NCBI GenBank assembly: GCA_013331625.1
Contig: DUGC01000111.1
Span: 1 to 13,733 of the forward strand
Source: Candidatus Iainarchaeum sp.
GTDB taxonomy: Archaea > Iainarchaeota > Iainarchaeia > Iainarchaeales > Iainarchaeaceae
Direction of reading: 5' to 3'
DNA: 13,733 nt
The notes beneath the pieces are model-generated. The model worked only from the letters and a program-made list of their open reading frames with translations. It ran no database searches and was not told the origin of the DNA. Shown here piece after piece: positions 2,770-13,374 of the stretch (its first letter is position 1; the number at the start of each line of letters is the position of its first letter). The position numbers were made by a program, and so were the translations under genes.

Positions 2770-3561
2770 ATGAAAGTTGAATGCATAGGGATTGCGGGAA
2801 GGAAGAGGAACGCGCTTGCGGCAAAAACCGCGATTGAAGCGGTCGCAATTCTTAAGGAAAAAAATATCGCGGTGCAAATTGAGAGGGGCTTTTTGAAGAT
2901 CGGGGGCGAAAGATGCATCCCTGTCAAAAAATTCAGCTGTGACATCGTGCTCTCTTTTGGCGGGGACGGGACTTTGCTGCAGGCCTGCCGCGATATCGGG
3001 AAAAAAATTCCGGTGATGGGGATAAACTGCGGCAACATCGGGTTTTTGCAGTCATATAAGGCGCAGGAGATTGCCGGTGCAATCGGGGACATAAGCGCAG
3101 GAAAATTTGAAATTGAAAAGCGCACGCGCATTCTGGCGCGCATAGATTCAAAGAGTGCCGGAGAGGCCCTCAATGAGGTCCTCGTGGTCCCTGCAAAGGC
3201 GGGAAGGCTGCTGCGCTACAAGCTCAAGATCGGCGGTGAAGGGAGAACAGAAGCCGGTGATGGCCTTATTGTTGCAACTCCGACCGGCTCGAGCGCGCAT
3301 GCACTATCTGCAGGGGGGCCTGTTGTGAAGGGCAATGCGGCAGTGTTTGTAGTGGTTTCCGTCAACCCTGTTGATTGGAAGCACCGGCCTTTGGTCATCA
3401 ATGACCATGAAAAGGTTGCAATTTCAGACTTTGAAAAAGGGATACGGGCAGAGCTCATAATTGACGGGCAGAAAAGGTTTGGGATAAGGAAAAAAGTGGT
3501 GCTTTTAAAGGGCTCGGAAGTGCTTTTTGCAAGGCGCAAGGAATTTCATAAAACCGGATAA
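2770..3561 (+). CDS. nadK: ATP-NAD kinase
   Basis: Phosphorylates NAD to NADP using ATP or polyphosphate; cytoplasmic. The 263-residue protein has the family signature GGDGT at residues 64-68, the NE pair at 135-136 (in ALNEVLVV), and the conserved block at 164-184 that reads DGLIVATPTGSSAHALSAGG. Length is normal for the single-domain archaeal/bacterial family. The ATG is preceded by a TATA-like box at the leaderless distance and by no ribosome binding site; the first residues (MKVECIGIAG) form the expected first strand of the fold. It stands between the divergent dikinase and the isoprenoid cluster, 127 bases from the next gene, so it is probably its own transcription unit. A cofactor-supply link to HMG-CoA reductase is conceivable, but the reductase keeps a residue associated with NADH preference, so I do not infer one. 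Confidence 0.95.
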   Translation: MKVECIGIAGRKRNALAAKTAIEAVAILKEKNIAVQIERGFLKIGGERCIPVKKFSCDIVLSFGGDGTLLQACRDIGKKIPVMGINCGNIGFLQSYKAQEIAGAIGDISAGKFEIEKRTRILARIDSKSAGEALNEVLVVPAKAGRLLRYKLKIGGEGRTEAGDGLIVATPTGSSAHALSAGGPVVKGNAAVFVVVSVNPVDWKHRPLVINDHEKVAISDFEKGIRAELIIDGQKRFGIRKKVVLLKGSEVLFARRKEFHKTG

Positions 3562-3931: not shown

Positions 3932-5218
3932 ATGTCTACCTCCAAGGTTTCAAAGTTCTATGAAAAGCCCCTTGCCGAAAGGGTGGCGATTGTAAAGGAG
4001 TTCGGCTCGCTCACTGATGGGGAAGCGGCGCTTTTGGGAAAGTTCGGGGCCCTTGATTTTGAGGTTGCAAACCGCATGATTGAAAATGTGTATTCCGCAT
4101 TCCCCCTGCCTTTGGGGATTGCAACCAATTTTGTGGTTAACGGCAGGGAGTACCTTGTCCCTTTCGCGCTCGAAGAGCCAAGCGTTGTTGCCGCCGCGAG
4201 CAATGCTGCAAAGCTGTGTTCCGGCTTTGAAGCCAAGGCAACCGAGCCTGTGATGATCGGGCAGATACAGCTTGTGAAGGTGAAAGACCCCAAAAAAGCG
4301 ATTGCTGCAATTAAGAAGGCGCAAAGGGAATTGCTGGAAATTGCAAACGCGGGCGATTCCACTTTGGTTAAATTCGGGGGAGGCGCAAGGAGGATAGAAG
4401 CAAGGGCAATATCAACAAAGCGGGGAAAAATGGTCATTTTGCATTTACTTGTGGATGTGCGGGACGCGATGGGGGCAAATGCGGTAAATACCATGTGCGA
4501 GCGCATCTCGGGGCGTATTGAAGAGATCACTAAAGCAAAAACAAGGCTCAAAATCATATCAAACCTTGCGGTCCACAGGACTGTGAAGGCAAAGGGGCTC
4601 TGGAAAAAAGAGGAACTCGGGGAGGATGCAATCGGAAAAGTTTTGGACGCTTACGAATTTGCCGCAAATGACGAGTTCCGCGCATGCACCCATAACAAGG
4701 GAATAATGAACGGGATTGATGCTGTCGTGATTGCCACGGGGAATGATTTCCGCGCAGTTGAAGCAGGGGCGCATGCATTCGCCTCGCGCAGCGGGAAATA
4801 TAAGCCGCTTACAAAATATTACTCCGATAAGCAGGGGAATTTAATCGGTGAAATTGAATTACCCATGGCTGTGGGGCTTGTGGGAGGCGCCACGAAGACA
4901 CACCCTATTGCAAAGATCAATGTGAAATTACTGGGGGTAAAGAGCGCATCAGAGCTTGCGGAATTGATTGCTTCAGTAGGATTGGCGCAGAACTTTGCCG
5001 CGCTGCGCGCGCTTGCAAACGAAGGGATACAAAAGGGGCACATGAGGCTGCATGCAAAAAACATTGCCGTGCTGGCAGGGGCGCAGGGGATTGCGATTGA
5101 GGAGATTGCAGGGCAGATAGTAAAGGAAGGGAACATCAGCGTCAGCAGGGCAAAGGAGATTTTGGGGGAAAAAGAAATGCTGACTACAACTGGCAAAAGC
5201 CCCGCCGGAGGAAACTAA
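3932..5218 (+). CDS. mvaA: HMG-CoA reductase, class II (bacterial type)
   Basis: Reduces HMG-CoA to mevalonate with two NAD(P)H; soluble, no membrane anchor. The 428 residues follow the Pseudomonas mevalonii class II enzyme throughout, as I recall that sequence: MIENVYSAFPLPLG at 49-62, EEPSVVAAAS at 81-90, DAMGANAVNTMCE at 178-190, THNKGIMNGID at 253-263, ATGNDFRAVEAGAHAFA at 268-284, LVGGATKTHP at 316-325 and GHMRLHAKNIA at 369-379. The four catalytic residues map to Glu82, Lys256, Asp272 and His370. Asp142 (in ANAGDST) aligns with Asp146 of the P. mevalonii enzyme, a determinant of NADH preference, so NADH use is inferred. Most archaea carry class I; class II is known in Archaeoglobus and Thermoplasmatales and is attributed to transfer from bacteria. 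It stands at the head of the mevalonate cluster, 58 bases before HMG-CoA synthase. Confidence 0.96.
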   Translation: MSTSKVSKFYEKPLAERVAIVKEFGSLTDGEAALLGKFGALDFEVANRMIENVYSAFPLPLGIATNFVVNGREYLVPFALEEPSVVAAASNAAKLCSGFEAKATEPVMIGQIQLVKVKDPKKAIAAIKKAQRELLEIANAGDSTLVKFGGGARRIEARAISTKRGKMVILHLLVDVRDAMGANAVNTMCERISGRIEEITKAKTRLKIISNLAVHRTVKAKGLWKKEELGEDAIGKVLDAYEFAANDEFRACTHNKGIMNGIDAVVIATGNDFRAVEAGAHAFASRSGKYKPLTKYYSDKQGNLIGEIELPMAVGLVGGATKTHPIAKINVKLLGVKSASELAELIASVGLAQNFAALRALANEGIQKGHMRLHAKNIAVLAGAQGIAIEEIAGQIVKEGNISVSRAKEILGEKEMLTTTGKSPAGGN

Positions 5219-5230
5219 CACACCGGTTAG

Positions 5231-5238
5231 CTTTAAAG
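5231..5238 (+). promoter_or_regulatory. TATA box of the HMG-CoA synthase operon
   Basis: CTTTAAAG lies about 43 bases before the synthase ATG. The predicted transcript start near 5261 leaves a leader of about 16 bases that contains an AGTGAG ribosome binding site (GTGA at 5266-5269, 7 bases from the ATG). Confidence 0.5.
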
Positions 5239-5250
5239 GATGGAAAATTG

Positions 5251-5256
5251 TTTTTT
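5251..5256 (+). terminator. Possible T-run terminator after mvaA
   Basis: Run of six T, 33 bases past the reductase stop and just before the predicted transcript start of the next operon. Consistent with archaeal T-tract termination; no hairpin seen. Confidence 0.3.
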
Positions 5257-5276
5257 AATGGAGCAGTGAGCAAAAG

Positions 5277-6329
5277 ATGAATGTCGGAATTGTCGGTTAC
5301 GGCGCATATATCCCGAAGAAAAGGATAACTGTTGAGGAGATCGCACGCGTTTGGAAAAAGGACGGGAAGAAGATCTCGGCAGGGATTGGCGTCAAGGAAA
5401 AAGCAGTCGCCTCATGGGATGAGGACGCGGCTACGATTGCAGTTGAGGCTGCAAGGCTGGCACTTGACGTGGCGCATATCGGGGCGGAGAAGATTGATGC
5501 CATCTATGTAGGGTCAGAATCGCACCCATATGCGGTGAAGACCACCTCCTCAATTGTAGGTGAGGCCCTCAATGCGGGGCAGGATTACATGTGCGCTGAC
5601 CTTGAATTTGCATGCAAGGCAGGGACGGCAGGATTGCAGATCGTGTATGGTTTTGCAAAGGCAGGGATGATAAGGTACGGGCTTGCGATAGGGGCTGACA
5701 CTGCGCAGGGAAGGCCGGGGGATGCGCTTGAATTTACTGCAGGCTCGGGCGGCGCTGCATTCATTGTGGGAAGCAAAAAGGAGGAAATAATTGCGGAAAT
5801 AAATGACACTTACTCATTCACTACCGATACCCCTGATTTTTGGAGAAGGCAGCACGCGCAGTTTCCGCGCCACGCAGGAAGGTTTACAGGAGAGCCTGCA
5901 TACTTTAAGCATGTAGTGAGCGCTTCAAAGAACATGATGAAAAAGGCAGGGATGGAGCCAAAGGATTTTGACTACGCGGTGTTCCACCAGCCAAACGGCA
6001 AGTTCCCTGTGAGGGCGGCAAAAATACTGGGATTTCGCGATCAGCACATTAAGCAGGGGCTTTTGACGCCAACAATCGGAAACACCTATTCGGGGGCCTC
6101 CATGGTGGGGCTTGCAAGCGTTCTTGACATTGCAAAGGCAGGGGACAAGGTTCTTGTCACCTCATACGGATCGGGGGCCGGAAGCGACGCATTTATCCTT
6201 ACAGTGACTAAAAATATAGAGAAGAAGAGGGCGAAGGTGCCGCTGCTTGAAGCGATTAAGGAAAAAGAGTATGTTGACTATGCGCAGTATGCAATACACC
6301 GCAAAAAGATAAAGACGCTGGGTGAGTGA
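5277..6329 (+). CDS. Hydroxymethylglutaryl-CoA synthase, archaeal type
   Basis: Condenses acetyl-CoA with acetoacetyl-CoA to give HMG-CoA. The 350-residue length and sequence fit the archaeal family rather than the longer eukaryotic/bacterial one. Visible active-site elements are GSESHPYAVK at 79-88 with Glu81, ADLEFACKAGTAGLQ at 107-121 with nucleophile Cys113, FHQPNGKFP at 236-244 with His237, and GNTYSGASMVGLAS at 268-281. In Methanothermococcus thermolithotrophicus the equivalent protein forms a complex with thiolase and a DUF35 protein that channels acetoacetyl-CoA; all three genes occur here in the same order, but with a membrane microprotein gene inserted between synthase and thiolase. 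The stop codon is followed directly by that gene's ATG. The final codons (GGTGAG) double as its ribosome binding site. The start has an AGTGAG site 7 bases upstream. Confidence 0.96.
   Translation: MNVGIVGYGAYIPKKRITVEEIARVWKKDGKKISAGIGVKEKAVASWDEDAATIAVEAARLALDVAHIGAEKIDAIYVGSESHPYAVKTTSSIVGEALNAGQDYMCADLEFACKAGTAGLQIVYGFAKAGMIRYGLAIGADTAQGRPGDALEFTAGSGGAAFIVGSKKEEIIAEINDTYSFTTDTPDFWRRQHAQFPRHAGRFTGEPAYFKHVVSASKNMMKKAGMEPKDFDYAVFHQPNGKFPVRAAKILGFRDQHIKQGLLTPTIGNTYSGASMVGLASVLDIAKAGDKVLVTSYGSGAGSDAFILTVTKNIEKKRAKVPLLEAIKEKEYVDYAQYAIHRKKIKTLGE
6321..6325 (+). promoter_or_regulatory. Ribosome binding site inside the synthase gene end
   Basis: GGTGA in the last codons of HMG-CoA synthase, 4 bases before the ATG at 6330. 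The same motif with the same 4-base spacing precedes the thiolase start (6488-6492). This is the main evidence that the intervening small ORF is translated. Confidence 0.7.
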
Positions 6330-6500
6330 ATGGAAGCATGGATCGGTAAAACTATTATCGGGATGGCAGTTTTCTTTATAGTTTACGCCGGGATAAATAT
6401 TTTCATCATGGGCAAAAATGACTTATTTAATCCGGTGGTGGCGACAATTTTTTTCGGGATAATAGCAGGTTACTTTGCAAAAAAAGCGGTGAAAACATGA
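6330..6500 (+). CDS. 56-residue two-helix membrane protein, unknown function
   Basis: Not recognised. The protein starts MEAWIGKTIIGMAVFFIVYA and has two hydrophobic stretches, about residues 8-27 and 35-50, joined by a short polar turn (MGKNDLFNP), with a basic tail ending KKAVKT. This is a helical hairpin of minimum size. The lysines at both ends (Lys7; Lys51, Lys52, Lys55) suggest both termini on the cytoplasmic side. It is fitted exactly between HMG-CoA synthase and thiolase: its ATG directly follows the synthase TGA, and its stop overlaps the thiolase start in ATGA. GGTGA ribosome binding sites stand 4 bases before both this ATG and the thiolase ATG. GC content is about 38%, lower than neighbours, partly because hydrophobic codons are T-rich. 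A role in tethering the synthase/thiolase/DUF35 complex to the membrane is my speculation. Confidence 0.75.
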   Translation: MEAWIGKTIIGMAVFFIVYAGINIFIMGKNDLFNPVVATIFFGIIAGYFAKKAVKT

Positions 6501-7663
6501 GGGGCGTCAGCATTGTTGGCGCAGGTCAGACCTCCTTTGGCGAACACTGGGAGAAAAGTTTCAAGGAATTGATAGCGGAAGCCGGGATAAAAGCGATTGA
6601 TGATTCGGGCCTTGCAAGAAAGGATATCCAGGCGGTTTACGGCGGATGCATGGCATCGGGAAGGTTCATCGGCCAAGAGCACATAGGGGCGCTCATTGCT
6701 GACCAGCTGGGGCTCAACCCTATCCCCTCAACAAGGCTTGAAGCCGCATGCGCTAGCGGCGGGGTTGCCTTGAGGAACGGCTACATTGCAGTGGCAAGCG
6801 GATTGTATGATATTGTTGCCGTCGGCGGAATTGAGAAGATGACTGAAGTGAGCACTGAGGATGCAAGCTTTGCCCTTGGGGGCGCGGGGGACCAGGAAAC
6901 GGAGCTATTCATGGGAGCGACATTTCCTGCACTTTATGCACTGATGGCGCGCTCACATATGAAGGAATTCGGGACAACTGAAGAGCAGATGGCATCGGTC
7001 AGCGTTAAAAATCACAAGAATGCTGTCCACAATCCTTTCGCGCAGTTCCGCACCGAAATCACTGTTGAGCAGGTCATGCAGTCAGGCTATGTCGCTTCCC
7101 CTTTGAAGCTGCTTGACTGCTCACCTATTAGCGACGGGGCAGCGGCAGTCATATTGTGCGCTTCAGATGTAGCAAAAAAAATGAAAATGGACGGGAAAGC
7201 CGTGGAGATAATTGCGAGCACGCAGGCTTCAGACACACTGGCGCTTGCACACAGGCACAACCTTTATGAAACCCGCGCAGCTAAAATTGCCGCTGATCAG
7301 GCCTATAAGCAGGCAGGAATAAAACCGGCAGATGTGAGTTTTGCTGAGGCACATGACTGTTTTAGTGCAGCGGAGATAATGGCAATTGAAGCATTGGGAT
7401 TCTGTAAGCAGGGGGAAGGCGGAAAGTTCACGGAACAGGGAAATACTGCACTTAATGGGGCTATACCTGTAAATACATCAGGAGGCCTGAAAGCTTGTGG
7501 GCATCCGGTAGCAGCAACAGGGGTAAAGCAGGCAATAGAAGCGTATCTCCAGCTCAATGAAATGGCCGGCAAAAGGCAGGTCAGGGGGGCGGAAACAGGG
7601 TTAACGCACAATGTGGGCGGGTCGGGCGCGACTGCGGTAGTGCATATTTACAGGAGGCTTTAA
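6497..7663 (+). CDS. Acetoacetyl-CoA thiolase (acetyl-CoA C-acetyltransferase)
   Basis: Condenses two acetyl-CoA into acetoacetyl-CoA, the first step of the mevalonate pathway. At 388 residues it fits the archaeal thiolase family of the HMG-CoA synthase complex. Motifs are RLEAACASGGVALRNGY at 80-96 with nucleophile Cys85, SPISDGAAAVI at 209-219, AEAHDCFSAAE at 283-293 with His286, GGLKACGHPVAATG at 329-342 with His336, and HNVGGSGATAVVH at 371-383. The start overlaps the upstream stop (ATGA) and has a GGTGA site 4 bases before it, implying translational coupling. Two bases separate its stop from the DUF35 ATG. In methanogens the enzyme feeds acetoacetyl-CoA directly to the synthase through a shared CoA site bridged by DUF35. 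A sterol-carrier-type thiolase of other function is unlikely in this context. Confidence 0.94.
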   Translation: MRGVSIVGAGQTSFGEHWEKSFKELIAEAGIKAIDDSGLARKDIQAVYGGCMASGRFIGQEHIGALIADQLGLNPIPSTRLEAACASGGVALRNGYIAVASGLYDIVAVGGIEKMTEVSTEDASFALGGAGDQETELFMGATFPALYALMARSHMKEFGTTEEQMASVSVKNHKNAVHNPFAQFRTEITVEQVMQSGYVASPLKLLDCSPISDGAAAVILCASDVAKKMKMDGKAVEIIASTQASDTLALAHRHNLYETRAAKIAADQAYKQAGIKPADVSFAEAHDCFSAAEIMAIEALGFCKQGEGGKFTEQGNTALNGAIPVNTSGGLKACGHPVAATGVKQAIEAYLQLNEMAGKRQVRGAETGLTHNVGGSGATAVVHIYRRL

Positions 7664-7665
7664 GG

Positions 7666-8070
7666 ATGACCCAAGGGGCATTGCCGCTGCACTGGAGAAA
7701 GTACCCTGAGCGCTACAGGCTTGAGGGCAACATAAACATTGAAACGGGGCAGGAATTCTTCCCTGCGCGCCTGGTTGACCCGCGGGCCGGAAGGAAGGGG
7801 CTTTTGCAATCCAAGGAGATGCCGCGCGAGGGGAAAATACTTTCGTGGACCGAAGTGTTTGTTGGCCCCGTGGGCTTTGATAACGAAACGCCATATTTCC
7901 TTGCAATTGTAGAGCTTGCAAACGGCGTGCGCATACTCACGCAAATCGTTGATTCTGAAAAAGAGAAAGTGAAAATCGGCGCCAAAGTGAGGAAAATGTT
8001 CCGCAAGATATCAGACACCGATGCAGAAGGGGCCATTGCTTACGGGTACAAGTTCAAGGTCGTGCACTGA
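7666..8070 (+). CDS. DUF35 / OB-fold acyl-CoA-associated protein lacking zinc-ribbon cysteines
   Basis: The scaffold partner of the archaeal thiolase/HMG-CoA synthase complex. The 134-residue protein begins with the typical helix and lead-in (LPLHWRKYPERYRLEGN, residues 6-22), then a region equivalent to the rubredoxin-like zinc ribbon (about 22-50), then an OB-fold containing GKILSWTEVFVGP (56-68) and PYFLAIVELANGVRILTQI (76-94). Family members usually have four Cys in the ribbon. Here there is no Cys anywhere in the protein; the positions read GNINIETGQEFFPARLVDPR. The ribbon therefore cannot bind zinc in the normal way, although the surrounding fold appears kept. The gene is 2 bases after thiolase, with an AGGAGG site at 7652-7657 8 bases before the ATG, so it belongs to the same operon. 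Family assignment rests on this context plus the lead-in and OB-fold pattern. Confidence 0.88.
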   Translation: MTQGALPLHWRKYPERYRLEGNINIETGQEFFPARLVDPRAGRKGLLQSKEMPREGKILSWTEVFVGPVGFDNETPYFLAIVELANGVRILTQIVDSEKEKVKIGAKVRKMFRKISDTDAEGAIAYGYKFKVVH

Positions 8071-8083
8071 GAAAAAGCGCAGG

Positions 8084-8090
8084 ATTAAAT
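8084..8090 (+). promoter_or_regulatory. TATA-like box before the 211-residue hypothetical gene
   Basis: ATTAAAT centred about 29 bases before the ATG at 8116, compatible with a leaderless transcript. A second AT-rich stretch at 8101-8110 (GCTTATTTAT) is too close to that ATG and would instead suit a downstream start. Confidence 0.35.
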
Positions 8091-8115
8091 TCGGCAATTT
8101 GCTTATTTATGCACT

Positions 8116-8751
8116 ATGCGCAGCAGGTTAAATAGTGGCGGATGGACCCCCAAGAACGGTTTGTTTGGGATCCCTCATAAAAGGCAGCTACCTGCAGCAG
8201 GAAAATTTGAAGAACTTTTAAAAAAACACCTGCAGATACCTGAAAAGAAAAGAGGGAGTATGGCAGATTACCTTCGCGACCATTTTCAATTTGAGTACAA
8301 AATAGACCAGAAACTTGGGGGAATACCAAAAAAGCCACCACATATGGTGAACAAGCCGGCTATTGCATATCTTGCGGATGCCTACCGCAGGAACAGAAGG
8401 CCCATGGAAATAAGCCTTGCAATTACGCTTTTGCACAATGCAGTGAAGGAGCTTAAATTAGTTCAAGGCCTCCAACAAGGCACGCAGGTCCGCAAGTTCA
8501 TAGAGGAGTGTGAAGAGGCAATTGAAGATCTGGAAGGGAATAAGAAAAGAAATTCAGATACAGCCATACTTGAAGACACGCCATTTCATTTCTTCAAAGA
8601 ACTGTTATGGAACGAAGTGAGGGCAATGAATAAAAATGCCGGAAAGCCGGATATGCGGCTTGAAAAGTACATTAAAAAAATTAGCAGGGAAATGGAGGCG
8701 CTTGCAGAGCGGTATGCTAGCGGCGGAAACAGCCACCAGCAGGGCATATAG
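8116..8751 (+). CDS. Hypothetical protein, 211 residues
   Basis: I do not recognise this protein. It is soluble, strongly charged and probably mostly helical, with no signal peptide, membrane segment or obvious metal or nucleotide site. The middle (about 75-135) contains MVNKPAIAYLADAYRRNRRP and a long amphipathic stretch; an acidic patch (EECEEAIEDLEGN) follows, and the C-terminus (FFKELLWNEVRAMNK, then SREMEALAERY) is helical. A hand count of part of the gene gives about 42% GC, below the neighbouring enzymes. The ATG at 8116 has a TATA-like box at leaderless distance. An alternative is the ATG at 8260 (residue 49, MADYLRDHF), which is directly preceded by AGAGGGAGT. It separates the DUF35 gene from the kinase genes, with gaps of 45 and 59 bases, so it may be a separately transcribed insertion. 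Confidence 0.75.
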   Translation: MRSRLNSGGWTPKNGLFGIPHKRQLPAAGKFEELLKKHLQIPEKKRGSMADYLRDHFQFEYKIDQKLGGIPKKPPHMVNKPAIAYLADAYRRNRRPMEISLAITLLHNAVKELKLVQGLQQGTQVRKFIEECEEAIEDLEGNKKRNSDTAILEDTPFHFFKELLWNEVRAMNKNAGKPDMRLEKYIKKISREMEALAERYASGGNSHQQGI

Positions 8752-8760
8752 CAGCACGCC

Positions 8761-8769
8761 ATTAAATAC
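8761..8769 (+). promoter_or_regulatory. TATA-like box before the first mevalonate kinase
   Basis: ATTAAATAC about 46 bases before the ATG at 8811, giving a predicted leader of about 19 bases that carries a purine-rich ribosome binding site (GAAGGGG at 8799-8805, 5 bases from the ATG). This would be the promoter of the lower-pathway genes. Confidence 0.45.
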
Positions 8770-8810
8770 GCTGCTAACACATTATTTTTTGGGGAAAAGA
8801 AGGGGAATTT

Positions 8811-9746
8811 ATGGGCGCTGCCGGAGTCGGGTGGGGAAAGGCGATCCTTTTCGGGGAGCACTTTGTGGTATACGGGCTGCCGGGGATCGCCGCTTCAATA
8901 GAGCTCAATACAACATGCACTTTTGAAAAGAACAAATCAGGGATTGCTTCCAATGACCTTGTAACCGGGGAAGTGATCAGGTATGGGGATGACAAGGGCA
9001 AAAGGCTCAATCAGGTGCTTGAAATTATTTTCAATGAAACCGGCATCAGGGAAGGGAATTTCAGGCTCGCGATGAGCACGAACATGTCGGTGAAGGGCGG
9101 GATGGGGAGCTCTGCTGCGCTTGCAGTGTCGATTACAAGGTGCCTTGACAGGGAGTTCGGGCTTGGGATCAGTGATGAAAAGGTCAATGATATTGCATTC
9201 AAGGTTGAAAAGCTGTTCCATTCAAACCCGAGCGGCATCGATAATACCGTTTCAACCTTTGGCGGGCTGTTGTGGTTCGTGAAGGGCGGGATGGGGAACA
9301 AAATGGAAAGGATCGGGGTAAAAAGGCCGGTTGAAGCTGTGCTTATTGACAGCGGCATTATCCGCGATACCGGCGAAGCTGTTGATTTTGTGAAAGGCCA
9401 GAGGGAAAAGGAGCCGGAGAAGTTTTCGGGAATGTTTGAAGAATACAATGGGATTGCACTTGATGCAAGGAAAGCAATTGAGGAGGGGGATTGGAAGGGG
9501 GTTGGCGTTTTGATGAACAGGAATCAGGAACTTTTGCGCGAAATGGAAGTGAGCAGCAAAGAGATTGAGGAAATAATTACCGCGTGCCTTAACGCAGGGG
9601 CATTTGGGGCAAAGCTTACGGGGGCAGGCCTTGGGGGGAATGCGATAGCGCTCACCCCGGGGAGGAATTTACAGGAAAAAGTGGCAAAGGAGTGCAAAAA
9701 AGCGGGCTTTGAGACTTATAAAATACTTATAGGGGTGCAGGGATAG
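8811..9746 (+). CDS. Mevalonate kinase (GHMP family), copy 1
   Basis: Phosphorylates mevalonate to 5-phosphomevalonate with ATP. The 311 residues carry the three GHMP motifs: GKAILFGEHFVVYGLP at 9-24 with Lys10; the ATP loop KGGMGSSAALAVS at 95-107 with Ser100; and GAKLTGAGLGGNAIAL at 266-281. The catalytic Asp144 lies in NPSGIDNTVSTFGG (139-152). The N-terminal ILFGEHFVVYG pattern is diagnostic of mevalonate kinases. The next gene is a clear paralogue, sharing the motifs and QREKEP before a similar helix, so the pair arose by tandem duplication. In motif 3 the usual GAGGGG is GAGLGG here. The start has an AGGGG site 5 bases upstream. Mevalonate as substrate is inferred from the motifs and the pathway neighbours; I cannot tell which copy is the main kinase. 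Confidence 0.9.
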   Translation: MGAAGVGWGKAILFGEHFVVYGLPGIAASIELNTTCTFEKNKSGIASNDLVTGEVIRYGDDKGKRLNQVLEIIFNETGIREGNFRLAMSTNMSVKGGMGSSAALAVSITRCLDREFGLGISDEKVNDIAFKVEKLFHSNPSGIDNTVSTFGGLLWFVKGGMGNKMERIGVKRPVEAVLIDSGIIRDTGEAVDFVKGQREKEPEKFSGMFEEYNGIALDARKAIEEGDWKGVGVLMNRNQELLREMEVSSKEIEEIITACLNAGAFGAKLTGAGLGGNAIALTPGRNLQEKVAKECKKAGFETYKILIGVQG

Positions 9747-9760
9747 GCTAAAAACTCTTC

Positions 9761-9768
9761 TTAAGTAC
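9761..9768 (+). promoter_or_regulatory. Possible promoter element before the second kinase
   Basis: TTAAGTAC in the 42-base gap between the two kinase genes, centred about 25 bases before the ATG at 9789. Gene spacing equally allows read-through from the first kinase gene. Weak. Confidence 0.2.
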
Positions 9769-9788
9769 ACTTAGGGTAAGAGGGTGGC

Positions 9789-10739
9789 ATGGTGGCAGGA
9801 AAAGGGGTTGGCTTTGGAAAGACAATTTTATTTGGCGAGCACTTTGTCGTTTATGGATTGCCTGCAATTGCATCGGCAATATCAGGCCATACTTTGGCAA
9901 CTGTTGAGGGCGGGAAGAACGGAATTGAATTTGTGGACAAAAGGCCGCAGGTCGAAGGTTACAAGGAAACAAAAAAGGGTGAGATTGCGCGCGAAATCGA
10001 TGCGCTTGTGAAATACTTCAAAATTGATCCTGCCAAAACGCCCCTCAAAATCACCCTTGCTGGCAATCTGGTGTGCGCTTCGGGGGTTGGCGCGAGCGCT
10101 GCGCTTGCAAGCTCCGTTGCGCGCGCGCTCAATGAGCACTTCTGCCTCAAAATGAATGATGAGAAAATCAACGAGGCAGCCTATGAGGCGGAAGCCGCTG
10201 GCTCGGGAACGCCAAGCGGGATTGACAATACATGCTCAACGTATGGCGGGATGATCTCATTCCAAAAGGGCCTGAAAGGGGGCAAGAACAAAATCACGCT
10301 GCTTGAAGTGAAAAAGCCGCTCTTTATCGTGATGGCAAGCTCGGGTATCACACAGGAGACAAAGGGCGTTGTTGCAGATGTCAGGGCGCAAAGGGAAAAG
10401 GAGCCGCAAAAGTATGAGAAAATCTTTTCCGAGTACACTGCGCTTTTTGGCAAAGCGCTTGAAGCGGTTAAAAAGGGCAATGAGAGGAAAGTTGGCGCCC
10501 TCATGGATAAAAATATGGAGCTTTTGAGGCAGATAAATGTGAGCTGCAAAGAAATTGAGGGGATAATTTCAGCTGCAAAAAAGGGCGGCGCGCTTGGCGC
10601 AAAACTTACGGGAACTGGAAGGGGGGGCTTGGCTATCTGCCTTGCTGCGGACAAAAAGGGCGCTGAAAAAATAGCTGCAGCAGTTAAGAAGGGCGGCTAT
10701 GAGGCGACAGTGACACAGGTCGGGGGGAAGGCAAAATGA
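9789..10739 (+). CDS. Mevalonate kinase-like GHMP kinase, copy 2
   Basis: Second kinase of the tandem pair, 316 residues. It has GKTILFGEHFVVYGLPAIAS at 10-29 with Lys11, ATP loop GVGASAALASSVA at 99-111 with Ser103, TPSGIDNTCSTYGG at 141-154 with catalytic Asp146, and a third motif GAKLTGTGRGGLAICL at 270-285. The GVGASAA loop and GTPSGIDN are the forms I associate with trypanosomatid and many archaeal mevalonate kinases; copy 1 has GMGSSAA and SNPSGIDN. The third motif departs from the usual GAGGGG (GTGRGG). All catalytic residues are present, so it should be active, on mevalonate or a related hydroxy acid. Its stop overlaps the decarboxylase start (ATGA), so it is translationally coupled to it; copy 1 is not. 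This closer tie makes it a good candidate for the main pathway kinase. Confidence 0.87.
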   Translation: MVAGKGVGFGKTILFGEHFVVYGLPAIASAISGHTLATVEGGKNGIEFVDKRPQVEGYKETKKGEIAREIDALVKYFKIDPAKTPLKITLAGNLVCASGVGASAALASSVARALNEHFCLKMNDEKINEAAYEAEAAGSGTPSGIDNTCSTYGGMISFQKGLKGGKNKITLLEVKKPLFIVMASSGITQETKGVVADVRAQREKEPQKYEKIFSEYTALFGKALEAVKKGNERKVGALMDKNMELLRQINVSCKEIEGIISAAKKGGALGAKLTGTGRGGLAICLAADKKGAEKIAAAVKKGGYEATVTQVGGKAK

Positions 10740-11728
10740 AGTCAACTGCTATTGCAAATTCGAACATTGCACTCGTCAAGTACTGGGGGAAGAGGAACGA
10801 GAAGCTCATTTTGCCCTTTAATTCGAGCATCTCGATGACTCTTGATGGCCTTTACACCGCCACAACTGTTGAATTTTCTGAAAAGTACAAACAGGATTCG
10901 CTCTCAATTGATGGCGGGCATATTTTTGGCGAGGAGCTCTCGAAAGCTTCAGTGCAGCTTGACATCATCAGGAAACTTGCAAAATCAACACTCAAAGGAA
11001 AAATGGTGAGCAGGAGCAACTTTCCCAAATCCGCAGGGCTCGCGAGCTCTGCTTCTGGGTTTGCGGCGCTCACTTTGGCTGCAACGAAAGCGCTGGGGTT
11101 GCACCTGGACAGGAAGGAACTTGGCATAATTGCGCGGCAGGGCTCGGGAAGCGCGTGCAGGAGCCTTTATGGCGGGTTTGTGGAGTGGCAAAAAGGGACT
11201 CTTGAAGACGGGTCGGACAGCTATGCAAGGCAGATCGCGCCAAAGGACCACTGGGGCGAGCTTGCAATGGTTGTGAGCGTTGTCACTGCAAAGGAAAAGA
11301 AGGTGAAGTCGCGCGCTGGGATGGCACAAACAGTTGCGAATTCGCCATTGTATAAAGCGTGGCTTGAAACGGTTGAAGATGACCTTGTAAAGGCCAGGAA
11401 GGGCATTAAGGAAATGAATTTCACGCTCCTTGGGGCTATAGCCGAAATGAACTGCCTCAAGATGCACTGCACGATGGTCACCACAACGCCCCATATAATT
11501 TACTGGGAGCCACAGACGGTTTCGATGATGAAAGAGGTGATGGCAATGCGCGAGGAAGGATTGGAATGCTATTTCACGATTGATGGCGGGCCGCAGGTCA
11601 AGATATTGTGCCTTGATAAGGACGTGAAAAAAATAGAGGCACGCGTGAGGGAAAACAAGGACGTGCAGAAAGTGTACTTGTGCCATGCGGGGGACGATGC
11701 GGGGATAACAAAAGAGGACTTGTTTTAG
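10736..11728 (+). CDS. mvaD: Diphosphomevalonate decarboxylase
   Basis: Converts 5-diphosphomevalonate to isopentenyl diphosphate with ATP-dependent decarboxylation. The 330 residues show the family hallmarks in order: NIALVKYWGKRNEKL at 10-24 with Lys15, LPFNSSISMTL at 26-36, FPKSAGLASSASGFAALT at 96-113, RQGSGSACRSLYGGFVEW at 134-151 with Arg142, and CYFTIDGGPQVKIL at 278-291 with catalytic Asp283 (usual form TMDAGPNV). Keeping Lys, Arg and Asp argues against mevalonate-3-kinase, a Thermoplasma relative that has lost the decarboxylase residues. A 5-phosphomevalonate decarboxylase of the haloarchaeal kind is harder to exclude from motifs, but a phosphomevalonate kinase gene lies nearby, which supports the diphosphate substrate. 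It overlaps the upstream kinase by 4 bases. Confidence 0.94.
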   Translation: MKSTAIANSNIALVKYWGKRNEKLILPFNSSISMTLDGLYTATTVEFSEKYKQDSLSIDGGHIFGEELSKASVQLDIIRKLAKSTLKGKMVSRSNFPKSAGLASSASGFAALTLAATKALGLHLDRKELGIIARQGSGSACRSLYGGFVEWQKGTLEDGSDSYARQIAPKDHWGELAMVVSVVTAKEKKVKSRAGMAQTVANSPLYKAWLETVEDDLVKARKGIKEMNFTLLGAIAEMNCLKMHCTMVTTTPHIIYWEPQTVSMMKEVMAMREEGLECYFTIDGGPQVKILCLDKDVKKIEARVRENKDVQKVYLCHAGDDAGITKEDLF

Positions 11729-12229
11729 ATGAGGGATAAACCAATTATGATCAGACTTATTCGCCAAATACCTGATTATTTAATAGAGGAATTCCTGCAA
11801 TCCTGTGTGCCTAGGCCAACACAGAGTTTTTATAGGAAGGATATAAAAAAAAGCAGTGTAAATGTGGGGGCGTTTGATGGAGAAAATATCATAGGTTTTA
11901 CATGCGGGGGAAATTCTGGATATGACCCAGGGATTATTATGCATGGCATTTATGTAAAGCCAGAATATCAAATGACAGGGAAAGGAAACACGGCCGGAGT
12001 TGGGCAACGGCTACTTACCAAACTTATCATGGAAGCGGGAAAACAAGGATTGAATCTAATTGGCAGTGATCTAAATAATAGAAGTTATAGGATGATAAGC
12101 AAAATAGTGGCGCGAATCGGGGCAAAAAAAGCAGAAAATCGCCCTTTTGAAATTGGCCTTGGCAAAGTAAGCATGACAAGCTTAATGGCTGCAGCAAATA
12201 TCAGAAAACCTGCCAGAAAGCCAAAGTGA
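11729..12229 (+). CDS. GNAT-like acetyltransferase fold protein
   Basis: A 166-residue protein with a GNAT-like pattern: strand VGAFDGENIIGFTCGG (46-61), strand IMHGIYVKPEY (70-80), a glycine-rich turn and helix GVGQRLLTKLIMEAGKQG (90-107), and NLIGSDLNNRSYRMISKI (109-126) in the position of the C-terminal motif. The usual Q/RxxGxG/A loop is stretched here (TGKGNTAGVGQ), so acetyl-CoA binding is likely but not certain. The C-terminus (MAAANIRKPARKPK) is basic. Its ATG directly follows the mvaD TAG; another start at 11747 (residue 7, MIRLIRQ) is possible. GC over 420 bases is about 40%, against about 50% in mvaD, and codons are T/A-richer, so it may be a recent insertion in the pathway operon. 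The substrate is unknown; no pathway step calls for an acetyltransferase. Confidence 0.7.
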   Translation: MRDKPIMIRLIRQIPDYLIEEFLQSCVPRPTQSFYRKDIKKSSVNVGAFDGENIIGFTCGGNSGYDPGIIMHGIYVKPEYQMTGKGNTAGVGQRLLTKLIMEAGKQGLNLIGSDLNNRSYRMISKIVARIGAKKAENRPFEIGLGKVSMTSLMAAANIRKPARKPK

Positions 12230-12235
12230 AGTAAT

Positions 12236-12239
12236 GTGA
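12236..12239 (+). promoter_or_regulatory. Ribosome binding site of phosphomevalonate kinase
   Basis: GTGA 4 bases before the ATG at 12244, in the 14-base gap after the GNAT-like gene. Short but in the usual position, and it supports the ATG chosen. Confidence 0.4.
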
Positions 12240-12243
12240 TATT

Positions 12244-13374
12244 ATGGAAGGGAATGTGGGCATTGTAAATGAAAAGGACGAAGTTATCGGGGTTTCAGCC
12301 CCCGGAAAGCTCATGCTATCTGGCGAGTGGAGCGTGCTTGAAAAAGGAAACCCATGCATCGTTCTTGCAATGGACAAGAAAGTCATTGCACGCATAAGGG
12401 AAAGCGATAAATGCTACATAAAACTTAAGAGCTTGGGGATTTCCACGAATGCAAAAATAGAGGGCACGAACGTAATCACTGAAAAAGAGGATGGGAAGCT
12501 CGCGTTCACAAAGCATGCAATACACACAGCCCTTGAGTACCTCAAAGGAAAAGGGATTAACCCCAAGAATTTTGAATTGGAGACCGATTCTGAGATGAAA
12601 ACTGACTCGCGGGAAGCCGAAAAGCTGGGCTTTGGGAGCAGCGCCGCGGCGGTTGTTGCAATTAGCGGGGCAGTGCTAAAGTTGCATGGAGGGGAAATCG
12701 AAACGGAGCAGGAAAAGGAAGTGCTCTTCAAGCTCGGGATCATAGCGCACTACTTCGCGCAATCAAAGATAGGGTCGGGGTTTGATGTTGCCGCTTCAAC
12801 TTTTGGGGGAGCGCTTTTGTACAGGAAATTTGACCCCCAGTGGCTTGAGGGCAAGCTTAAGGAAAAAAGCGTTTTTGGGGTTGTGAATTCAAAGTGGCCA
12901 TGGCTGGAGCACAAAAATATCGAGTTGCCAAGGCAGATGAGGGTGGTCGTGGGATTTACCGGAAAGAGCGCATCGACAAAAGAGCTTGTGACACGCCTCA
13001 AATCCTTCAGGGAAGGGCAAAAGGAAGACTATGGCCGCATAATAAGTGAGATTGTGCAAATCACTACAAGCCTTGTTGGCGCGCTTGAGAAGCAAGATAA
13101 CAAAAAAATATTGCATCTTTTGGAAAGAAACCGGAATGCATTAAGGGAACTTAGTGACAAAAGCGGGGCAGGGCTTGAAACAGCAGAGCTTGAAAAAATC
13201 GCGCTTGCTGCCAAAAAGTATGGCGCTGCGGGGAAGTTTTCTGGCGCTGGGGGCGGGGACTGCGGGATTGCTGTTTGCTTTGACAAAAATACTGAGGCGA
13301 AGATAAAAAAGGAGTTTGCCGCGCAGGGGATAACTGTTATCCCTGTGGGGATTTCTAGGGACGGGGCGAAGTGA
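12244..13374 (+). CDS. mvaK2: Phosphomevalonate kinase (ERG8 / mvaK2 type, GHMP family)
   Basis: Phosphorylates 5-phosphomevalonate to the diphosphate, the substrate of mvaD. The 376 residues hold SAPGKLMLSGEWSVLEKGNP at 18-37 with Lys22, the ATP loop KLGFGSSAAAVVAISGA at 127-143, KIGSGFDVAASTFGGALLY at 175-193 with Asp181, GFTGKSASTKELV at 237-249 (the GxSAST signature of this family), and GAAGKFSGAGGGDCGIAV at 327-344. GEWSVLE in motif 1 and SGFDVAAS separate it from mevalonate kinases (GEH; SGIDN). Length is typical of bacterial enzymes. Among archaea this enzyme is well documented in Sulfolobales; most others lack it. It closes the cluster, 14 bases after the GNAT-like gene and probably co-transcribed with it. 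Confidence 0.93.
   Translation: MEGNVGIVNEKDEVIGVSAPGKLMLSGEWSVLEKGNPCIVLAMDKKVIARIRESDKCYIKLKSLGISTNAKIEGTNVITEKEDGKLAFTKHAIHTALEYLKGKGINPKNFELETDSEMKTDSREAEKLGFGSSAAAVVAISGAVLKLHGGEIETEQEKEVLFKLGIIAHYFAQSKIGSGFDVAASTFGGALLYRKFDPQWLEGKLKEKSVFGVVNSKWPWLEHKNIELPRQMRVVVGFTGKSASTKELVTRLKSFREGQKEDYGRIISEIVQITTSLVGALEKQDNKKILHLLERNRNALRELSDKSGAGLETAELEKIALAAKKYGAAGKFSGAGGGDCGIAVCFDKNTEAKIKKEFAAQGITVIPVGISRDGAK

Follow-up and report, generated by a model that had tools for sequence, protein, structure and literature searches.

A mevalonate locus of predicted classical type in a Diapherotrites archaeon, and the apparent replacement of lower-branch modules behind a common upper block

How does a small-genome Diapherotrites archaeon come to carry a predicted classical mevalonate pathway, from acetyl-CoA to isopentenyl diphosphate (IPP), in a single gene cluster, and what occupies the same locus in its relatives? 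The window analysed here is the whole 13,733-nucleotide contig DUGC01000111.1 of Candidatus Iainarchaeum sp. A first-pass annotation had placed all six mevalonate enzymes between positions 3932 and 13374, which was borne out: each is encoded by an intact open reading frame (ORF) scoring above curated NCBIfam cut-offs. The cluster lies on the plus strand and starts with a class II HMG-CoA reductase (HMGR, 3932..5218; TIGR00532, 446.6 bits, cut-off 260; best PDB match 6dio, 426 bits). It is followed by an archaeal-type HMG-CoA synthase (HMGS, 5277..6329; NF003274, 544.6 bits, and TIGR00748, 541.2 bits; best PDB match 6esq_I, 467 bits), an acetoacetyl-CoA thiolase (6497..7663; NF004720, 556 bits, cut-off 420; best PDB match 6esq_A, 395 bits; under the cut-off of the narrower family NF053570, 536 of 600) and a predicted DUF35/OB partner of the thiolase-HMGS complex (7666..8070; PF01796, 62 bits; best PDB match 6esq_E, 84.5 bits). 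The lower part comprises two mevalonate kinases (TIGR00549, cut-off 163), the extra copy MK1 (8811..9746, 221.0 bits) and the family-resident copy MK2 (9789..10739, 220.2 bits), a diphosphomevalonate decarboxylase (MDD, 10736..11728; TIGR01240, 327.4 bits, cut-off 171.35) and a phosphomevalonate kinase (PMK, 12244..13374; TIGR01220, 239.5 bits, cut-off 165.7; PDB matches 3k17, the Lin0012 protein, 165 bits, and 1k47, a phosphomevalonate kinase, 77 bits).

Further genes complete the locus. An ORF between the OB gene and the kinases (8116..8751, plus strand) has no family match, tblastn against the other 59 locus regions gave nothing at 1e-6, and a GNAT acetyltransferase (11729..12229, plus strand; PF00583) separates MDD from PMK; a GNAT gene 49% identical to it also follows MDD in the chimeric genome G006 (see below). 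The first-pass list lacked these two genes, the DUF35/OB partner and the second MK. Comparison of ORF starts with sister genomes suggests that the first 16 PMK codons (12244..12291, plus strand) are probably a remnant of the NUDIX gene sited between MDD and PMK in those genomes; in G003, NUDIX and PMK are joined in a single open frame of 547 amino acids. Upstream, translations indicate a divergent pyruvate phosphate dikinase (PPDK)-like gene truncated by the contig start (2..2701, minus strand) and an NAD kinase-like gene (2770..3561, plus strand). A gene similar to the former also lies beside the mevalonate locus in G001, G020, G022, G025, G032 and G034, and one similar to the latter in G001, G020, G022 and G063. 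The contig ends 359 bases past PMK; an IPP isomerase was not found in the window, and tblastn with the NUDIX and IDI2 genes of a relative returned nothing in this tail.

The HMGS, thiolase and OB genes are adjacent in this order, and 6esq is the closest PDB entry for all three proteins. As in 6esq and 6et9, which we take to be structures in which thiolase, HMGS and DUF35 form one complex, the three subunits are found together, here as genes encoded side by side. Thiolase, HMGS and the OB protein would produce HMG-CoA, HMGR would reduce it to mevalonate, MK and then PMK would add two phosphates, and MDD would yield IPP. On this prediction, the window has all steps from acetyl-CoA to IPP in the same enzyme families as the classical (eukaryote-type) pathway of Sulfolobales, Bacillota and eukaryotes. 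It differs from that pathway in its upper enzymes, where thiolase, HMGS and DUF35 protein are of the archaeal kind and HMGR is of class II, in forming one cluster with two MKs, and in a lower half that is interchangeable among relatives.

The archaeal assignment of the host was confirmed with EF-2, as the archaeal 16S model gave no match in the window genome. The genome encodes an archaeal EF-2 (TIGR00490, 748 bits, cut-off 738, the match being cut by a contig end), and in the upper-gene tree the upper genes of the window group with the family members G001 and G006 (support 100, starred); a bacterial origin of the contig was rejected on these grounds. In relatives this slot is taken by the archaea-type route (AcnX, UbiD-type decarboxylase, IPK), and partly so in two members of the window's own family. 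The window genome differs: AcnX was not found there by a search that was positive in M. jannaschii among five controls, and IPK gave two weak matches (44 and 32 bits against a cut-off of 120). These absences are consistent with the classical reading; they are not final because the genome is 86.75% complete.

The phylum was surveyed in 87 genomes with family profile cut-offs, all relatives being draft or metagenome-assembled (G059 is listed with 4% contamination). PMK scored above cut-off in 21 genomes, MDD in 24, AcnX in 33 and IPK in 39; neither PMK nor AcnX did so in 33. PMK never co-occurred with AcnX, although 7.97 such genomes would be expected (hypergeometric 6.9e-6, kinship not corrected for), nor with IPK. 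A contig scan with the single window PMK as query retrieved no relative. Gene order was read in 60 regions from 57 genomes, covering all AcnX genomes but G056, G057, G064 and G065, and clustering and types were counted over 52 in-order genomes with loci read. At least one upper-pathway gene shares a contig with lower-branch genes in 46 of these 52, so the mevalonate pathway is normally clustered in the order of the window genome. The claim that archaeal mevalonate genes are usually scattered, and that the cluster is a strong departure, is therefore not supported for this order; the archaeal, complete classical route in the same first-pass interpretation is supported.

Throughout the order, a constant HMGR-HMGS-thiolase-OB block is accompanied by one of several lower branches. 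The classical branch (MK-MDD-PMK) was found in 22 of the 52 genomes; the archaea-type branch reads MK-UbiX-UbiD-AcnX-IPK. A Thermoplasma-like branch (M3K-M3P5K-MBD-IPK, no MK seen) occurs in G044, G049 and G066, a possibly haloarchaea-type (PMD-like) branch (MK-PMD...IPK) in one genome, G013, and a chimera without PMK (MK-MDD-UbiX-UbiD-AcnX-IPK) in G002 and G006, both of the window's family. In the Thermoplasma-like genomes, IPK is above cut-off in all three and G049 has the four genes on a single contig. M3K is the best family for the G044 and G049 candidates at scores below cut-off (128 and 135 of 440), as is MBD in all three (158-169 of 560), and the M3P5K candidates reach 113 and 110 of 250, below cut-off, versus 126 and 120 bits for 2-phosphoglycerate kinase; both kinase labels in G066 rest on similarity to G049. 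The PMD-like protein of G013 has NF040704 as its best family, below cut-off (192 bits of 475), and the IPK of this genome, above cut-off, lies on a different contig, both genes being near contig ends. Lower-branch types differ inside up to eight genera. Six of the 22 classical loci (G069, G050, G039, G005, G004 and G059) lie on contigs that carry no upper gene, and their genus assignment depends on binning.

Pairs of loci from the same genus illustrate these differences. In G007 and G002, the stretch from MDD to a NUDIX gene common to both holds PMK in the former and NUDIX-UbiX-UbiD-HD-AcnX-IPK in the latter; their shared locus genes are 70-91% identical. Compared with G046, its congener G051 has an inverted PMK-MDD pair between OB and MK and lacks UbiX..IPK, MK being kept (83%). 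The same inverted pair is present in G054, where the contig stops before MK. G063 and G044, again of one genus, have upper genes that are 78-91% identical, followed by a classical branch in the one versus M3K-M3P5K in the other. We consider it likely that the window represents a classical locus in which the upper block of the order stands next to a slot where lower-branch modules replace one another. This reading builds on the observed gene content, gene order, exclusivity and tree positions, from which we infer the enzyme activities and the mode of replacement: a module would be gained inside the locus, after which the other module would be lost.

Alternatively, two complete lower branches stood next to each other in the forebear of the whole order, or in that of every family, and lineages lost one of them with no exchange, a scenario to which we give somewhat less than an even chance. 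It agrees with the MDD, PMK and UbiD/AcnX trees, which mostly keep families together (family f14 is split in the MDD trees and f10 unresolved in the PMK tree), with an MDD above cut-off throughout the window's family (eight genomes), and with the single clade formed by the six PMKs of that family (95, starred). The accessible part of PMC11052028 also describes Hodarchaeales with PMK+DMD and AMPD+AcnX on one contig. Against it, none of the 87 genomes has PMK and AcnX both above cut-off today. In family f10, moreover, the MKs of the classical genomes G050 and G069 group with other families (98, starred), apart from the other seven f10 MKs, which form their own clade (99, starred). The chimeric MDDs of G002 (genus g2) and G006 (genus g3) are sisters (99/97), whereas the EF-2 tree pairs each of these genomes with a classical congener (100, starred); an AU test of this sisterhood against G002+G005+G007, set up after tree inspection, gave a marginal p of 0.046.

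Kinship and lower-branch type were also compared directly. The upper-gene tree recovers families, with 13 changes for 14 family labels. Classical versus archaea-type or chimeric labels required 10 changes in 37 rows of this tree (11.9 on average after shuffling; 15.5% of the 2000 shuffles needed no more), and classical versus archaea-type labels 9 changes in 32 rows of the EF-2 tree, with EF-2 rows covering 41 of 53 relatives searched (shuffle mean 10.7; 22% of 100 as low); on both trees these labels are little more clustered than shuffled ones. Counting against the replacement reading, five type labels are clustered to a degree, with 13 changes over 40 rows of the upper-gene tree (16.5 on average after shuffling; 2.5% of shuffles needed no more). 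In the MDD tree, 23 of the 24 MDDs above cut-off in the order form one clade, with a Woesearchaeon adjoining and a record titled Pacebacteria inside (SH-aLRT 90, unstarred), and the MDD of G027 falls with Micrarchaeota; no donor of the module was identifiable from this tree.

It is improbable that one of the window kinases or the decarboxylase uses another substrate and the pathway is of some other type. GHMP enzymes are known to have shifted in substrate, and the window has two MK paralogues in tandem, of which MK1 is not the family-resident type: it pairs with the first MK of G005 (100, starred), this pair adjoining MKs of family f14 genus g28 (91), and MK2 falls in the clade where the remaining MKs of family f1, its own, are found (99, starred). 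Such a shift is argued against by MDD and PMK scores above equivalog cut-offs and by the failure to find AcnX, or an IPK above cut-off, in the window genome. The window MDD also keeps K188, S192, R193 and D283, corresponding to K187, S191, R192 and D282 of the Enterococcus faecalis enzyme (mapped via an Enterococcus raffinosus row with constant offset), whose roles in catalysis and diphosphate contact are given in the accessible part of PMC7414129; R142 is conserved as well, its numbering being one off from R144 of that source. MDD could be read in 20 PMK-bearing genomes, the window included, and 19 of them have an arginine at the R193 position. Since G062 has Thr here and many PMK-bearing bacteria have T, S or G (80 fetched loci, the best 80 of 587 relatives in an MDD alignment search, 5 of them archaeal by title), this residue was rejected as a strict marker and is only suggestive of diphosphate use. 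Least probable of all is that the within-genus differences are binning artefacts, with cassette contigs assigned to the wrong organism: the drafts have up to 4% contamination and six classical contigs lack an upper gene, but 16 of the 22 classical loci share their contig with one or more upper genes, the upper-gene tree places G051/G054, G063, G073 and G007 within the genus or family to which each belongs (100, starred), the downstream flanks are also common to both members of the G007/G002 and G051/G046 pairs, and the single- and two-contig genomes, G020 and G019 respectively, are classical with AcnX not above cut-off.

By family score, the decarboxylases of the chimeric loci in G002 and G006 are MDD (337 and 332 bits) rather than PMD (192 and 190 of 475), and they lack the Arg that contacts the substrate diphosphate. 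At the positions of the Lys of WGK, the Arg of SRxGM and a Met, G006 has Q/E/M, without the WGK lysine, and G002 has K/N/M; in the multiple alignment, three Chloroflexota rows, taken for comparison with PMD, read N, S/T and H, with Leu at the last position in a pairwise alignment. The PDB entries 6n0x, a PMD in its natural form, and 6n0z, a mutant, have WGN and WGK, respectively. By this comparison, the WGK lysine would be the DMD lysine meant in the accessible part of PMC11052028. The loss of Arg hints at a change of substrate, by which the chimeric MDDs may act on 5-phosphomevalonate and feed IPK. The same source reports DMD without PMK in Asgard CR-4, similar to these chimeras; unlike in the Asgard cases, the chimeric DMD sits inside an archaea-type cassette and congeners carry a classical cassette at the same locus. 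More tentatively, and with somewhat less than an even chance, a single locus in one order could be an exchange site holding all four described lower routes and the chimera behind the same upper block, with classical/archaea-type switching so frequent that kinship hardly predicts the route; the former MDD of the chimeras, freed from PMK, would then be a second enzyme supplying isopentenyl phosphate to IPK, with the chimeras as present-day intermediates between routes.

That DPANN genomes carry classical mevalonate genes is already published at the level of presence. The accessible parts of the sources mention PMK and DMD in 'several DPANN MAGs' (PMC11052028), a 'typical mevalonate pathway' in 39.7% of Diapherotrites (PMC8407392) and PMK and MDD in Micrarchaeota (PMC12892359); heterogeneity of MEV versus MEP within bacterial genera is likewise described (PMC13001223, accessible part). 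The unusual part is the interchangeable lower half of the locus, which the first-pass annotation did not note; among the titles and abstract openings retrieved from open-licence PMC papers, none gives an account of lower-branch swapping at one locus in Diapherotrites. A survey of the density given in the accessible part of PMC11052028, 229 genomes for 138 archaeal orders, is too sparse to reveal swapping within a genus. The lower mevalonate branch makes the archaeal lipid precursor and is used as a marker of deep evolution, for the origin of the pathway and for Asgard-to-eukaryote transfer. If the route indeed changes within a genus by cassette swap at one locus, route type would say little about deep ancestry, and tests on the sister pairs G002/G007, G006/G003, G051/G046 and G063/G044 could show how an essential pathway gives way to another while IPP supply continues.

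The window is the entire contig C103 of a genome of 1.43 Mb (86.75% complete) and carries, in this order, a PPDK-like gene on the minus strand, a NAD kinase-like gene, HMGR, HMGS, thiolase, OB/DUF35, an unassigned ORF, two mevalonate kinases (MK1 and MK2), diphosphomevalonate decarboxylase (MDD), GNAT and phosphomevalonate kinase (PMK). The first-pass annotation had described a complete classical mevalonate set in an archaeal cluster, and this set is real: from acetyl-CoA to IPP, every window enzyme scores over the curated NCBIfam cut-off of its family. HMGR is of class II. The nearest PDB match is 6esq for thiolase, HMGS and OB alike, and for both MKs it is 2hfs, a Leishmania enzyme, which ranks above the archaeal entries 4hac, 1kkh and 1vis. 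An archaeal EF-2 is present in the genome, and the search proposed for AcnX and isopentenyl phosphate kinase (IPK) returned no AcnX and no IPK over the cut-off in this 86.75% complete assembly. The window is placed in the Diapherotrites, of which Iainarchaeota is the GTDB name according to PMC12892359. As first described, the finding is mostly known already, the classical route of DPANN/Diapherotrites being in print at presence level. The 211-aa ORF between OB and MK1 (8116-8751) has no family match and was not seen in the other regions read.

The phylum sample comprised 87 genomes, 75 of them in the window's order, and loci were read in 60 regions from 57 genomes (52 in the order, 5 outside). 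At least one of the upper-block genes HMGR, HMGS, thiolase and OB lies on the lower-branch contig in 46 of the 52 in-order genomes, and none does in six. The slot behind this block is variable. The classical module (MK-MDD-PMK) was found in 22/52 genomes, 21 with PMK over the cut-off and G073 with a PMK truncated where its contig stops. In G054 and G059 the contig lacks MK, and G051 and G054 have PMK-MDD in inverted orientation. The archaea-type module MK-UbiX-UbiD-AcnXL-AcnXS-IPK occurs in 23/52 (the contig of G060 stops before IPK) and a chimera, MK-MDD-NUDIX-UbiX-UbiD-AcnX-IPK, in G002 and G006. G044, G049 and G066 carry a Thermoplasma-like M3K-M3P5K-MBD-IPK set, with assignments below cut-offs and on two contigs in G044 and G066, and G013 has MK-PMD-like genes with IPK on a separate contig. 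No type was given to G027, which has two fragments of MK and an MDD truncated at a contig end. Downstream of the slot there is often an isomerase candidate, IDI2 in some genomes and a NUDIX gene in others (e.g. L033, L040, L049 and L234), the NUDIX genes scanned all scoring below isomerase cut-offs. No upper genes were seen in the five out-of-order regions; four have AcnX in different gene orders. In the fifth, from the class-level relative G082 (L239), a divergent decarboxylase with His at the position typical of phosphomevalonate decarboxylase (PMD) adjoins IPK, possibly a haloarchaea-type pair. The MDD of a record titled Candidatus Pacebacteria (L064) is 59% identical to the window MDD and falls among the order's MDDs, which indicates either a transfer or a bin that is mixed or wrongly named.

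Over the cut-offs, PMK was found in 21, AcnX in 33, MDD in 24 and IPK in 39 of the 87 genomes. PMK coincides with neither AcnX nor IPK in any of them (0/87 each); for AcnX the expected overlap is 7.97 (hypergeometric chance 6.9e-6, uncorrected for kinship). MDD and AcnX meet in 2/87 genomes, the chimeras, and 33/87 have neither PMK nor AcnX. Among the 25 genomes whose completeness is 90% or more and whose contamination does not exceed 5%, a hand count gave PMK in 6, AcnX in 9, both in 0 and neither in 10. The type varies inside eight genera: in g2, g20, g33 and g37 the difference is backed by upper genes on the same contigs, in g3 more weakly by OB alone on the G003 contig, in g13 and g26 it depends on binning, and for g36 the AcnX in question, that of G065, is incomplete and sits where a contig ends, in a locus outside those read. 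Among the genomes used, route and kinship are nearly, but not completely, unrelated, because change counts on both trees are close to shuffle means. For classical versus archaea-type or chimeric loci, the upper-gene tree requires 10 changes over 37 rows (shuffle mean 11.9; 15.5% of 2000 shuffles as low) and the EF-2 tree 9 over 32 rows (mean 10.7; 22% of 100 as low). With five labels the upper-gene tree shows some clustering (13 changes, 40 rows, mean 16.5; 2.5% as low); the family labels, 14 in number, fit it without conflict in 13 changes.

Comparisons within genera suggest how replacement may work. G007 and G002 are sisters on the EF-2 tree (support 100), separated by roughly 0.10 changes per column, and share MK, MDD and the downstream genes; the stretch from MDD to a common NUDIX gene holds PMK in one and NUDIX-UbiX-UbiD-HD-AcnX-IPK in the other. 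Compared with G046, G051 has an inverted PMK-MDD between OB and MK, keeps the old MK (83%) and lacks UbiX to IPK between MK and IDI2. Compared with G053, G054 likewise has PMK-MDD inverted, as far as the contig of G054 reaches. Since the remaining five genomes read in this family, f17, are all archaea-type, the arrangement looks like a gain of MDD-PMK, after which the archaea-type genes would have been lost. In family f10 the MKs of G050 and G069 cluster with those of other families, so that the entire MK-MDD-PMK set may have arrived together. G063 and G044 differ as classical versus Thermoplasma-like, with upper genes 78-91% identical.

The window itself carries apparent traces of its history. 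MK1 and MK2 (8811-10739) are a tandem of different origin, with a similar pair in G005; because MK1 groups with a G005 MK next to genus g28 of family f14 on the MK tree, while MK2 lies inside the family's own clade, MK1 looks like an addition. A NUDIX gene stands between MDD and PMK in G001, G003, G004, G005 and G020, and in G003 NUDIX and PMK form a single open frame of 547 aa (L032:5679-7322). Residues 1-16 of the window PMK (12244-12291) resemble the start of that gene: among 531 ORF starts compared with the G002 NUDIX start, the window PMK scores 46, surpassed only by the NUDIX genes of G006 (66), G020 (62) and G004 (51), and the next below scores 20. We read this as a probable deletion in which the greater part of the NUDIX gene was lost, its start now being joined to PMK.

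G002 and G006 combine MDD with the archaea-type module and IPK, without PMK. Their MDDs retain the mapped catalytic residues, and the Arg of MDD is replaced by N in G002 and by E in G006; in E. faecalis MDD, R192 with the preceding S191 contacts the substrate pyrophosphate (PMC7414129). The Lys of the WGK motif is also gone in G006; for PMD-like enzymes of Asgard CR-4 and Chloroflexota, PMC11052028 describes loss of a DMD lysine. We regard a shift to phosphomevalonate as substrate as possible to likely. Against it, the Arg is absent also from 1/20 PMK-bearing genomes and from many bacteria, the Lys is kept in G002, the PMD His is absent from both chimeric MDDs, and both proteins score as MDD; the alternative is that they are a decaying leftover.

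We found no description of lower-branch switching at a single locus with chimeras in the literature searched; papers beyond it may describe it. After this follow-up the locus is unusual and worth closed genomes and assays.
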